Assembly: GCA_030613045.1 (NCBI GenBank)
Contig: JAUWMS010000016.1
Location: 1-13,132 of the forward strand
DNA from: Candidatus Latescibacterota bacterium
Lineage (GTDB): Bacteria > Latescibacterota > 4484-107
DNA: 13,132 nucleotides
Direction of reading: 5' to 3'
Of this stretch, positions 551 to 13,067 are shown in pieces. How positions within the stretch are numbered: the first letter of the stretch is position 1; the number at the start of each line of letters is the position of its first letter. The notes beneath the pieces are model-generated. The model ran no database searches and had not been told where the DNA came from. It saw nothing but the letters and a program-made list of their open reading frames with translations. A program made the translations under genes and the position numbers.

Positions 551-2026
551 ATGGAAACCATCCATCTCATTAGTCTGGGCTGTCCGAAGAACCTGGTGGA
601 CAGCGAGCGCATGTTGGGCTTATTGGAGCGGAGTGGGTATGCCTTGACGGAGGAACCCGAAGAAGCCGACGTGGTGATCGTGAATACGTGCGGCTTTATC
701 GCCCCGGCCAAGGAGGAATCTCTATCGGTCATTTTTGAGGCGGCCCGTCTGAAGGAGGAGGGACGTTGCAGGGCGTTGATCGTGGCGGGATGTCTTTCGC
801 AGCGGTACGGAGATACGTTGAGACGGGAGCTTCCGGAGGCGGATGCGATTCTCGGTCTGAAGGACGTGGAGCGGATCGTGGCGCATTGCGACCGGCGCCT
901 CGGGCATCGTCGTTCGCAAGATCTTACCGCGGAGGACGCTGAGTGCGCAGAGAGAAGACAGGTTGAGGTTGAGAAAGGCGGAATGGGGTCGTCTCAGCCT
1001 TTGTCTTTCTCAGCGACCTCCGCGGTCTCTGCGGTGAAAACGAAGGGATTTTCGTCCCTCCCAAGTGAAGCGATCTGTTCCAATGGTGCACGGCATCTGC
1101 TGACGCCGAAGCATTCCGCGTATCTGCGCATTGCGGACGGGTGCGACAATCGGTGTTCGTACTGTGCGATTCCGATGATTCGGGGTGTGTATCGCAGTCG
1201 TCCGGAAGATGCGCTTATCGCCGAAGCCCGGGTCTTGTGCGAACAGGACGTGCGGGAACTCAATCTGATCGCGCAGGATATTACCCGCTATGGAGAAGAC
1301 CTTTACGGCGAACCGCGATTGAGCGGTCTGATAGATGCCCTTTCGGAACTGGACGATCTTCGCTGGATTCGACTGCTCTACACGCATCCGGCGCACTTTT
1401 CTCAAGACATGATCGGCTGCATCGCCCGGAACGAAAAAGTATGCCGGTACGTGGATCTTCCCATCCAGCACATCTCCGACCCGCTCCTTCGTGCGATGAA
1501 TCGGAAAGTGACCGGGGACGATATTCGAAAACTGATGCAGCGTTTGCGATCCGAGGTTCCGGGGATCGCGCTTCGCACCTCGCTGATCGTGGGATTTCCG
1601 GGCGAGACGGAGGCGCACTTCGAGGAATTGCTGGACTTCGTCGCCGAAGCCCGCTTCGAGCGGTTGGGCGCGTTTATTTATTCGCGGGAGGAGGACACGC
1701 CGGCCGCCGCGTTCGACGATCAGATTCCAGAGGAAATCAAGCGGGAGCGGCTGGACCGCTTGATGATGCAGCAGCAGGAGATCACGTCGGAGCGGAACGA
1801 GTCTTTGATCGGAACGCGCGTGCAGGTGCTCGTAGATCGTCCCGGCGATCAGGCCCCGATCCGGTGGGTGGGACGCACGGCGTGGGATGCGCCCGACGTG
1901 GATGGCACGGTGCTCATTACCGAGGGCGATGCGCTCCCCGGCGATTTCGTCTCGGTCGCGATCACGGATGCCGATGCGTACGACCTGTGGGGGGCTATCG
2001 TTGGCGGAGAGAGCGATAGAAAGTGA
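551..2026 (+). CDS. rimO: Ribosomal protein S12 methylthiotransferase RimO (with an in-frame insertion)
   Basis: A radical-SAM iron-sulfur enzyme that methylthiolates a conserved aspartate of ribosomal protein S12 in the cytoplasm. The 491-residue product has the MTTase N-terminal domain (LGCPKN with Cys11, NTCGF with Cys47, AGCLSQRY with Cys81, binding the auxiliary cluster). It then has the radical-SAM domain with DGCDNRCSYCAIP (Cys198, Cys202, Cys205) and a C-terminal TRAM-like region from about residue 425. TPKHSAYLRIADGC and LPIQHISDPLLRAMNR favour RimO over MiaB. The ATG at 551 (METIHLISLG) is chosen because family similarity begins there; upstream in-frame codons lie in repeat DNA. No Shine-Dalgarno is visible before it. 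The protein is about 45-50 residues longer than usual because residues ~122-170, between the two domains, are encoded by a palindromic repeat. The TGA stop lies inside another repeat. All catalytic cysteines are intact, so it may still be active. Confidence 0.95.
   Translation: METIHLISLGCPKNLVDSERMLGLLERSGYALTEEPEEADVVIVNTCGFIAPAKEESLSVIFEAARLKEEGRCRALIVAGCLSQRYGDTLRRELPEADAILGLKDVERIVAHCDRRLGHRRSQDLTAEDAECAERRQVEVEKGGMGSSQPLSFSATSAVSAVKTKGFSSLPSEAICSNGARHLLTPKHSAYLRIADGCDNRCSYCAIPMIRGVYRSRPEDALIAEARVLCEQDVRELNLIAQDITRYGEDLYGEPRLSGLIDALSELDDLRWIRLLYTHPAHFSQDMIGCIARNEKVCRYVDLPIQHISDPLLRAMNRKVTGDDIRKLMQRLRSEVPGIALRTSLIVGFPGETEAHFEELLDFVAEARFERLGAFIYSREEDTPAAAFDDQIPEEIKRERLDRLMMQQQEITSERNESLIGTRVQVLVDRPGDQAPIRWVGRTAWDAPDVDGTVLITEGDALPGDFVSVAITDADAYDLWGAIVGGESDRK
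920..1040. repeat. Palindromic repeat inserted in frame within rimO
   Basis: The left arm (about 924-960) starts TTACCGCGGAGGACGCTGAG and ends in GCGCAGAGAGAAGAC. The right arm (about 1003-1038) reads GTCTTTCTCAGCGACCTCCGCGG and ends CTCTGCGGTGAA; its reverse complement closely matches the left arm. Related single copies are intergenic at 5334-5364 and 8367-8405; the latter shares the exact 14-mer GATCTTACCGCGGA with position 920. A GGTTGAGGTTGAG module, also seen at 4439, lies in the loop. The reading frame of rimO stays open throughout, giving TAEDAECAERR and SFSATSAVSAVKTK as translated repeat. Confidence 0.88.
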
Positions 2027-3661: not shown

Positions 3662-4414
3662 CTAACTCTGTCCTGCGTTCCCCGAGGCGGGTTCTTCAGT
3701 TCCGCCCAGAAACGCCCGGATCATCTGTTCCTCCAGATCCTTCTTCGCTTCGGAGAGGTCTTTGGACGTATCTATGGCACGCCAGTATTCCCGGCACTGG
3801 AACGCATTCAGGCGTCCTTCCCCGGCCAGTTTTGGAAAGGTCGTGTCCTCGTGATCCCCCTTGTCGGGCAGGAGGTCATAGATACCTTTTGAAAAAATAT
3901 ACACACCTCCGTTGATCCAATAGGGCAGTTCCGGTTTTTCCCGAAATCCCTGAATGTTCCCGCTTTCGTCCAGATCCACAACGCCATACGGGCTGATGAG
4001 CGGGACGAGCACGATCGTGGCCATCGCTCCCGAAGCGTTATGGCTCTCTATGGTTTTCTGAAGATCGAAGCGGGTGATAATATCTCCATTGGTCACCGCG
4101 ACGAGACCCGACTTATCCCGAAGCCGCACTTTCGCCAACGCCTGTTTGATCCCGCCGCCCCGCCCCAGCGGTTCGTTTTCGACGGCGTAGCTGATGTCGA
4201 GTCCCCATTTCTCTCCTTTTCCAAAATACTCCTCGATCACCTCGTGGCGATACCCGCACGATATGACCACCCCGTTTACACCGGACAATTTCAGCCAGCG
4301 GATCTGGTATTCGAGGACCGGCATGCCCAGCACTTCCACCATCGGTTTGGGCCGATCCTCGGTCAGCGGTCGCAGCCGTTCTCCTTTGCCGCCTGCCAAG
4401 ATGATTGCATACAT
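3662..4414 (-). CDS. Sugar-1-phosphate nucleotidyltransferase (NTP_transferase family)
   Basis: A cytoplasmic enzyme expected to couple a sugar-1-phosphate to a nucleoside triphosphate, giving an NDP-sugar for glycan or sugar-nucleotide synthesis. The 250-residue protein opens with the nucleotide-binding signature LAGGKGERLRPLTEDRPKPM (6-25, with Lys23 in RPKP). It has the metal-binding VTNGD (Asp111), the GFREKP motif (156-161), WINGG (166-170) and a closing WRAIDTSKDL (211-220). It matches the short form of the GDP-mannose/GlcNAc-1-P pyrophosphorylase type, without a C-terminal left-handed beta-helix domain. The exact sugar and nucleotide cannot be told from sequence; HddC- or mannose-1-phosphate guanylyltransferase-like activities are both possible. 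GGAGGG lies 6 nt before the ATG at 4414, which supports the start. It is co-directional with the isomerase upstream, across a 106-nt repeat-filled gap. Confidence 0.9.
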   Translation of the reverse strand: MYAIILAGGKGERLRPLTEDRPKPMVEVLGMPVLEYQIRWLKLSGVNGVVISCGYRHEVIEEYFGKGEKWGLDISYAVENEPLGRGGGIKQALAKVRLRDKSGLVAVTNGDIITRFDLQKTIESHNASGAMATIVLVPLISPYGVVDLDESGNIQGFREKPELPYWINGGVYIFSKGIYDLLPDKGDHEDTTFPKLAGEGRLNAFQCREYWRAIDTSKDLSEAKKDLEEQMIRAFLGGTEEPASGNAGQS

Positions 4415-4438
4415 GCGTTTCCCTCCATGTAACAGCAG

Positions 4439-4526
4439 GTTAAGGTTGAGGTTAAGATTAAGACCACCCCGCTCCGCTCTATCTCGACCTCAACCTCAAC
4501 CTTGTCTTTACCTTCGCGTTTTACGA
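4439..4526. repeat. GGTTGAG/GGTTAAG heptamer inverted repeat with a CGTTTTACG module
   Basis: Tandem heptamers GGTTAAGGTTGAGGTTAAG (from 4439, to about 4465) face their inverted counterpart CGACCTCAACCTCAACCTTG (from 4485, to about 4512) across a 19-nt loop. GCGTTTTACGA (4516-4526) follows, the reverse of the CGTAAAACG module at 421. The stop codon of the upstream isomerase (4521-4523) lies in that module. A GGTTGAGGTTGAG copy also lies inside rimO (961-973). Confidence 0.85.
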
Positions 4527-5333: not shown

Positions 5334-5364
5334 GCACCGCAGAGACGCGGAGCACGCTGAGAAA
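5334..5364. repeat. Single copy of the ACCGCAGAG/ACGCGGAG repeat
   Basis: GCACCGCAGAGACGCGGAGC and the following ACGCTGAGAAA belong to the family inserted into rimO at 924-1038 and found at 8367-8405. This copy lies about 25 nt upstream of the isomerase start codon, so it would be in that gene's leader. Confidence 0.8.
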
Positions 5365-5370
5365 TTATCC

Positions 5371-5430
5371 GTGAAAGTGAGAAAGTGAGAAAGTGGGAGG
5401 GGGCTCACCGTCTCACTTTCTCACTTTCAC
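5371..5430. repeat. Perfect 20-bp inverted repeat of the GTGAGAAA family
   Basis: GTGAAAGTGAGAAAGTGAGA (5371-5390) is repeated exactly as its reverse complement at 5411-5430, with a 20-nt loop (5391-5410). A transcript from the oxidoreductase into the isomerase gene would carry this long hairpin. There is no U-tract, so it is not a canonical terminator. Confidence 0.9.
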
Positions 5431-8366: not shown

Positions 8367-8405
8367 GATCTTACCGCGGAGCACGCGGAGGGCGCAGAGA
8401 AAAAA
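8367..8405. repeat. Single copy of the TTACCGCGGAG repeat between atpC and rnfB
   Basis: GATCTTACCGCGGAGCACGC and GGAGGGCGCAGAGA belong to the same family as the insertion in rimO; the first 14 bases are identical to positions 920-933. It lies within the 118-nt gap after the V-ATPase subunit C stop. Confidence 0.85.
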
Positions 8406-8411
8406 CAAAAC

Positions 8412-10658: not shown

Positions 10659-10713
10659 GTGAAAGTGGGAGAGTGGAAAGGTGGGGGTCTCACTTTCTCA
10701 CTCTCTCACTTTC
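10659..10713. repeat. Imperfect inverted repeat of the GTGAGAAA family
   Basis: GTGAAAGTGGGAGAGTGGAA (from 10659) faces CTCACTTTCTCACTCTCTCA (from 10689, ending near 10713); the reverse complement of the second matches the first at most positions. It lies about 50 nt after the response-regulator stop and would form a long hairpin at the 3' end of that transcript. Cognates are at 2018-2055 and 5371-5430. Confidence 0.8.
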
Positions 10714-13006: not shown

Positions 13007-13050
13007 CGAAAGCCTCCCTACTCCGATCTACTCTTCCGAAGGGGGCAGAT

Positions 13051-13067
13051 GATTGCGGATTGCGGAT
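13051..13067. repeat. GATTGCG heptamer repeat, end of window
   Basis: GATTGCGGATTGCGGAT (13051-13067) is the reverse orientation of the ATCCGCA heptamers in the rimO leader. It is followed by a run of nine C (13068-13076). It lies upstream of the histidine kinase start. Confidence 0.7.

Follow-up and report, generated by a model that had tools for sequence, protein, structure and literature searches.

An in-frame palindromic insert in rimO of a Candidatus Latescibacterota bacterium, probably a copy of a dispersed genomic element

The rimO gene of a Candidatus Latescibacterota bacterium holds, between two domains of the enzyme that it encodes, a palindromic insert that is in frame and is probably a copy of a dispersed element of about 120 bp, which would have landed in the linker in an ancestor of the genus and would be translated within the enzyme. 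The window, meaning here the whole stretch of DNA analyzed, is 13,132 nucleotides long (positions 1 to 13,132 of contig JAUWMS010000016.1, assembly GCA_030613045.1) and corresponds to contig C232 of the host genome, G000 (3.14 Mb, 580 contigs, 78% complete). Positions given without a locus are those of the window (Table 1).

Table 1. Features of the window, with sites and units at other loci of the genome
Feature	Position	Strand	Remark
rimO (30S ribosomal protein S12 methylthiotransferase)	551..2026	+	TIGR01125, 492 bits, above the RimO equivalog cutoff of 357; UPF0004, Radical_SAM, and TRAM_2 domains
Insert, 53 codons	914..1072	+	Defined against homologues P0005 and P0006 (one residue there)
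Palindromic hairpin element, about 119 bp	922..1040	+	T-rich/A-rich ends; predicted fold, -64.1 kcal/mol; boundary from flank conservation
Left arm, three 9-bp units	926..952	+	Read as TAE-DAE-CAE
GGTTGA hexamer module in loop (VEVE)	960..973	+	From sequence; VEVE-type and QPQP-type expansions here in P0003 and P0007
Right arm, three 9-bp units, inverted form	1009..1035	-	Plus-strand reading SATSAVSAV
GGTTGA-type hexamer hairpin	4437..4502		Arms 4437-4458 and 4481-4502; upstream of gene 3665-4414 (-)
Single-arm copy	5336..5361	+	Probably just 5' of the true (inferred) start of a minus-strand TIM-barrel gene
Intergenic single-arm copy	8367..8407	+	88% identical to 920-960
Sites empty in G001	L147 1836; L165 5745; L176 2915; L179 1000; L199 5650; L199 6123		
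MITE-like units	L147 1795-1935; L199 6081-6221; L181 2612-2791; L172 2091-2268; others		

The rimO insert and its hairpin

The rimO frame runs without an internal stop from ATG 551, probably the true start, to the stop codon ending at 2026. Heptamer repeats 5' of this ATG probably explain a longer start, at 449, as an artefact; repeats of ATCCGCA, ATCCAAA, and GTAAAGC types lie at 420-550 and 13048-13067, and those upstream of rimO probably give it a spurious N-terminal extension, of which the homologue P0005 apparently has a similar one. The preliminary description had placed 45 to 50 extra residues between the MTTase and radical-SAM domains; the location, at the junction of MTTase/UPF0004 and radical SAM, was correct, and the size proved to be 53 residues (159 nt). 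In solved RimO 4jc0, 24 residues separate the two aligned domains, versus 72 in the query protein. The claim that the frame stays open and the catalytic cysteines are kept held as well, all six cysteines that are invariant across a 111-sequence RimO alignment being present in the insert-bearing protein.

Most of the insert is a hairpin, with about 40 of the 159 nt lying outside it. Its arms are built from a 9-bp, three-codon unit, NNCGCNGAG, and flank the GGTTGA module that had been noted in the loop; the left arm reads ACCGCGGAG GACGCTGAG TGCGCAGAG. The inverted pair 926-943/1009-1026 is 94% complementary over 18 nt and extends to the full arms. The predicted RNA fold of 915-1045 (-64.1 kcal/mol, against -43.4 with a standard deviation of 3.6 for shuffles; z, -5.8) was not equalled by any of 200 shuffles; in the predicted stem, the paired triplets are GAG with CTC and CGC with GCG, and the N and NN positions are opposed as small symmetric loops. 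The boundary was read from 55 flank windows of those pairs in the genome that have no MITE-like termini: T occupies positions -1 to -4 in 40 to 47 of the 55, and from -5 outwards conservation is at most 0.32 bits. Because flank conservation ends so sharply after -4, the element was placed at about 922-1040, close to the 920..1040 first proposed. A palindromic repeat lying in frame inside rimO, as originally described, is borne out by the inverted pair, the hairpin fold, and the open frame.

So stable a fold, predicted as a hairpin for the copy in a second genome of the genus (G001) too, would suit a role as RNA, with the structure serving as a pause or a regulator between the folding of the domains, or being bypassed by the ribosome. 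We regard such a role as very unlikely, since the same hairpin is predicted for other pairs of the repeat, intergenic ones included, an Rfam scan of the window at the gathering threshold gave no match, and a synonymous excess within the insert (see below) suggests translation.

Distribution and evolution of the insert

Of 41 genomes other than G000 and G001, 35 have the halves of RimO on one contig (G002, G023, G027, and G029 were unresolvable), and the insert was absent from all 35, which are the resolvable genomes of the phylum beyond the genus and where the gap between the halves was 0 to 42 bp (141 to 198 bp in the query; values read off the search table). For proteins, the query was aligned with 110 homologues taken from the best 120 of 8000 matches listed; of the seven closest, three have an organism name, in each case Candidatus Latescibacteria or Latescibacterota. 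At least 30 residues occupy the insert site in 6 of the 111 sequences (the query and five homologues; range, 37 to 54), the median over the alignment being 10, and P0005 and P0006, 80 to 81% identical to the query, have the single residue against which the insert was defined. An insert lies at the same place in G001 and in the database proteins P0002, P0003, P0004, and P0007, and its length and sequence vary among the bearing homologues: P0003 and P0007 have no right arm, the P0004 insert has little sequence in common with that of the query, and P0001 and P0002 retain the right-arm peptide SATSAVSAVK. The comparison of orthologues that had been proposed therefore found the insert absent or variable among relatives. 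An ancient insert common to distant RimO proteins is ruled out for the homologues examined (110 aligned, of the best 120 of 8000 matches listed).

That the insert arose in assembly or binning, or is a low-complexity stretch due to chance, might be suspected in a genome so fragmented and incomplete, but is scarcely credible given the insert at the same place in the second genome and in four database proteins, and the 122 genome-wide matches to the repeat against 1 for a control (see below).

In the comparison of G000 with G001, dS is 0.28, dN is 0.10, and dN/dS is 0.37 for the insert; the remainder of rimO has values of 0.30, 0.038, and 0.125. The dS of the insert is close to that of the rest of the gene, and the insert therefore predates the split of the two genomes. 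Within the insert, synonymous changes are in excess (P = 0.03) and the nonsynonymous rate exceeds that of the rest of the gene (P = 0.006; both one-sided, on rounded counts), from which the insert appears to evolve faster as a protein with some constraint left, its dN/dS relaxed and still below 1. Two indels between G000 and G001 come from a protein-guided alignment, a method that admits only multiples of three. On its own, the open frame is weak evidence, because 23% of inserts in a neutral simulation would remain open at this divergence. In an AlphaFold prediction (111 sequences), pLDDT is at least 90 at 403 of 491 residues and below 50 at residues 130-177, and a predicted helix (123-141) reaches into the low-confidence stretch. 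The model suggests an intact enzyme fold with the insert as a disordered loop at the domain junction, the outcome that the proposed fold check had envisaged.

These data also bear on whether the repeat has been recruited as a linker that selection now keeps for RimO function, for example for domain spacing or partner binding. The dN/dS of less than 1, the nominally significant synonymous excess, and the SATSAVSAVK peptide of P0001 and P0002 would agree with such recruitment, which we nevertheless consider unlikely in view of the missing right arm in P0003 and P0007, the divergent P0004 insert, nonsynonymous change that outpaces the rest of rimO, and the predicted disorder. We favor entry of a dispersed element with little consequence for the enzyme. 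An element of about 120 bp would have entered the linker in the ancestor of the genus, by transposition for which a host or insertion sequence (IS) enzyme probably acted in trans. Its 9-bp unit would be read as three codons, with no stops in the frame used, and would encode a hydrophilic peptide, an Ala/Glu helix followed by a Ser/Ala tail. RimO would tolerate this peptide because it is hydrophilic and placed between two folded domains. Presumably translated as part of RimO and nearly neutral in effect, the insert would later have drifted under weak constraint, with changes of length by whole codons.

Copies of the repeat in the genome and in other phyla

The 14-mer GATCTTACCGCGGAG is identical at 920 and 8367, as had been noted, and is part of a 41-nt repeat. 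As a string it is weak evidence, because two matches with up to three mismatches turn up in 17 of 200 shuffles as well. With up to two mismatches, ACCGCGGAGNNCGC occurs 7 times in the window (shuffle mean, 2.6; 2 of 200 shuffles reach 7), and the three-unit pattern CGCNGAGNNCGCNGAGNNCGCNGAG has 122 matches genome-wide versus 1 for the reversed control. A chance origin of the repeat is ruled out by the reversed-pattern control and the shuffles. Copies that had been reported at about 5334 and 8367 were found, each as a single arm and not as a pair. In 61 contigs (430 kb) selected for holding matches, 138 arms formed 103 clusters, with 35 convergent pairs, no divergent pairs, and 68 single arms; at least 17 base pairs close across the center of the predicted fold in 35/35 convergent pairs, a figure without a shuffled control.

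Other short-unit repeats occur in the window and at other loci of the genome. Inverted repeats of an 8-bp unit like GAAAGTGA at 5371-5430 and 10659-10713 form a separate short-unit palindrome family, units of which were also seen inside other elements. Composites with octamer and nonamer parts at L199 5466-5767 and L151 near 3668 have a common peptide-like reading, PKNCESG, and the L199 copy is absent in G001.

A search for translated repeats in other proteins, suggested at the outset, found similar arms inside other genes of the genome. After a Pfam run on 40 enclosing open reading frames (ORFs), 8 of the 103 clusters lie in genes with family support, a lower bound for the fetched loci, and most clusters examined are outside recognizable genes. 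Full pairs occur in five genes (rimO, a TIGR03960/TIGR03936 fusion, a GH57 enzyme, murD, and a GATase/GXGXG protein), and single arms were detected in three (an alpha-amylase/glucanotransferase-like C-terminal domain, flgA, and an LptC/OstA-like ORF). Five of the eight, namely rimO, murD, and the GH57, amylase-like, and LptC/OstA-like genes, have relatives that clearly do not carry the stretch. The murD element (44 to 57 residues in the query) is in the Mur ligase middle domain; 13 genomes were searched, G000 among them, and in 8/8 of those that have the two pieces on the same contig the site measures 6 to 48 bp; no murD orthologue was found in G001. The GH57 stretch is common to G001 and missing from L211 and L212. 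Matching flanks enclose 12 bases in G001 versus 93 in G000 for the amylase-like gene, where G007 and G008 also have no such stretch, and 16 versus 97 for the LptC/OstA-like gene, with open frames in both genomes; the latter stretch (L165 5621-5838) is in frame after what by eye is a signal-peptide-like segment and is absent in G001. The fusion gene has its element between the two domains, in common with G001. Its linker is shorter in G002 to G005 and G009, and absence of the element from these five genomes is likely rather than clear because the linker is variable anyway. In relatives of the GATase/GXGXG gene, the linker in question is occupied by unrelated sequence. Six of the 8 genes have the left arm in the xAE frame, murD and the LptC/OstA-like gene being different (P = 0.02 under equal frames, ignoring that one frame has stops).

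Long ORFs over elements at genes for glycine cleavage T, lipoate ligase, nrdR, UDP-glucose dehydrogenase, a glycosyl transferase family 3 protein, a purH-like protein, and a Gfo/Idh protein were judged by eye to be upstream regions, and those lying within a short-chain dehydrogenase, an ABC ATPase, or a TIM-barrel gene were set aside as probable chance matches. Nonamer copies were observed directly 5' of probable start codons (L162, L165, L175, L163, L195, and L194; the first four genes above are examples) and so may sit in leaders.

For empty sites, the 61 G000 contigs were compared with 80 G001 contigs. Matching flanks were found in G001 for 31 of the 103 clusters, 23 spanned by one alignment and 8 with split flanks; of the latter, 7 were aligned, and 6 look empty in G001 (Table 1), while one (L147 10398) keeps a partial element. 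Most copies are therefore common to both genomes, and a minority differ. At two of these sites, in the amylase-like and LptC/OstA-like genes, the copy that is present in G000 and absent from its congener lies inside a gene and in frame; an empty site could reflect either gain or loss, and in that search wider relatives were also without the stretch only for the amylase-like gene. The edges of the seven aligned flank pairs are too diverged for any target duplication to be read. Together, the distribution of copies and the empty sites suggest movement of the element.

A distinct MITE-like family in the genome, mostly of 132 to 199 bp, has AAGTNNNTGGACANAATT termini, often ending in TA, and cores that are made of short-unit repeats and can be swapped. 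The terminus has 133 matches in the genome versus 2 in controls. Of 28 units in the fetched loci (one doubtful, 377 bp), 19 have a nonamer-like core under a loose pattern, and two of the copies absent from G001 sit in a larger unit of this kind with AAGTNNNTGGACANAATT termini. A AAGTNNNTGGACANAATT-like terminus lies within 70 bp of 6 of the 35 pairs; the rimO pair has none.

Among 60 genomes, G000 (122 three-unit matches; control, 1) and G001 (74; control, 2) stand out. Three class-mates of G000 have 1, 1, and 0; counts are raised in G041 (45; control, 8), G056 (36; control, 2), and G028 (20; control, 2), and many others are not clearly above controls. A broader CRCNGAG scan covered 25 genomes, G000 and 24 hand-picked from 80 loci, and found arrays in 14, G000 included (controls, 0 in all 25), with 47 matches in a genome of KSB1, 23 in one of Omnitrophota, 18 in one of Thermodesulfobacteriota, and 16 in one of Brocadia. 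With arrays in several other phyla, the nonamer unit is not confined to the host lineage, and a lineage-specific repeat is ruled out. The repeat had been said to belong to a lineage unrelated to Rickettsia; the phylum does differ, but the nonamer itself is not restricted to the lineage of the host. Convergent pairs are also present in CRCNGAG-bearing genomes of other phyla, in which 35 clusters judged by eye gave no convincing in-gene copy. One locus from another phylum (L304 1340-1525) has arms of both orientations inside a 682-amino-acid open frame.

Known repeat families and implications

Rickettsia palindromic elements (RPEs) are described as dispersed long stem-loops of about 105 to 146 bp, found in frame in conserved protein genes and between genes (PMC2229807, PMC10969869). 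The element reported here is similar in being a hairpin of about 119 bp, within the 100 to 150 bp typical of RPEs, that enters conserved genes in frame and also has intergenic copies. It differs in phylum, in arms that form a degenerate 9-bp tandem ladder, and in that most examined clusters are outside recognizable genes. The parallel with RPEs drawn in the preliminary description is apt as to mechanism: the likeness is one of size, hairpin, and in-frame entry, with the three-codon ladder as a distinctive trait.

The bacterial MITEs ERIC, YPAL, and QMITE are small, nonautonomous, and palindromic and are sometimes fused in frame (PMC2229807, PMC5896051, PMC10969869). The element shares the small palindrome and the in-frame fusions, but is a bare hairpin whose arms are themselves inverted, apparently with no separate terminal repeat; it is the distinct MITE-like family of this genome that often holds a nonamer-like core. 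PARCEL, described as palindromic protein-coding DNA with a patchy distribution over clades and 25-residue motifs in tandem arrays in ORFs of no assigned function (PMC2996958), is alike in that palindromic DNA codes for protein; the rimO case is instead a single 53-residue insertion in a recognizable enzyme, with no 25-residue amphipathic tandem array by eye. The TAACTGA heptamers of Beggiatoaceae, reported as short-unit tandem repeats between genes, sporadic across phyla and nearly all direct (PMC4679880), resemble the nonamer in tandem structure and sporadic occurrence, whereas nonamer arrays form convergent, hairpin-forming pairs, some inside genes. REPs are palindromes of 20 to 40 bp (PMC3733652), against about 119 bp for this element. 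The open-license literature yielded, among the matches listed, no report of such elements in Latescibacterota and, by title, nothing on the nonamer.

Several bacteria are known to have small mobile repeats fused in frame to genes, with RPEs presented as the extreme case (PMC10969869). We raise tentatively, as less probable than the origin proposed for the rimO insert, that the nonamer hairpin family is mobile over several phyla; its three-codon ladder might make length changes frame-neutral, and in some lineages it might repeatedly write disordered linkers into essential enzymes, an RPE-like novelty outside Rickettsiales with a core held in common with MITEs by module exchange. Here, a hairpin repeat scattered through a genome has probably entered genes without breaking them, and the cells probably make enzymes with a floppy extra stretch that derives from selfish DNA. 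With an apparently unrelated family in a candidate phylum, and in-gene empty sites between congeners, selfish DNA as a general source of linkers becomes testable. Anyone who calls genes or aligns orthologues from metagenome assemblies will come across such segments.
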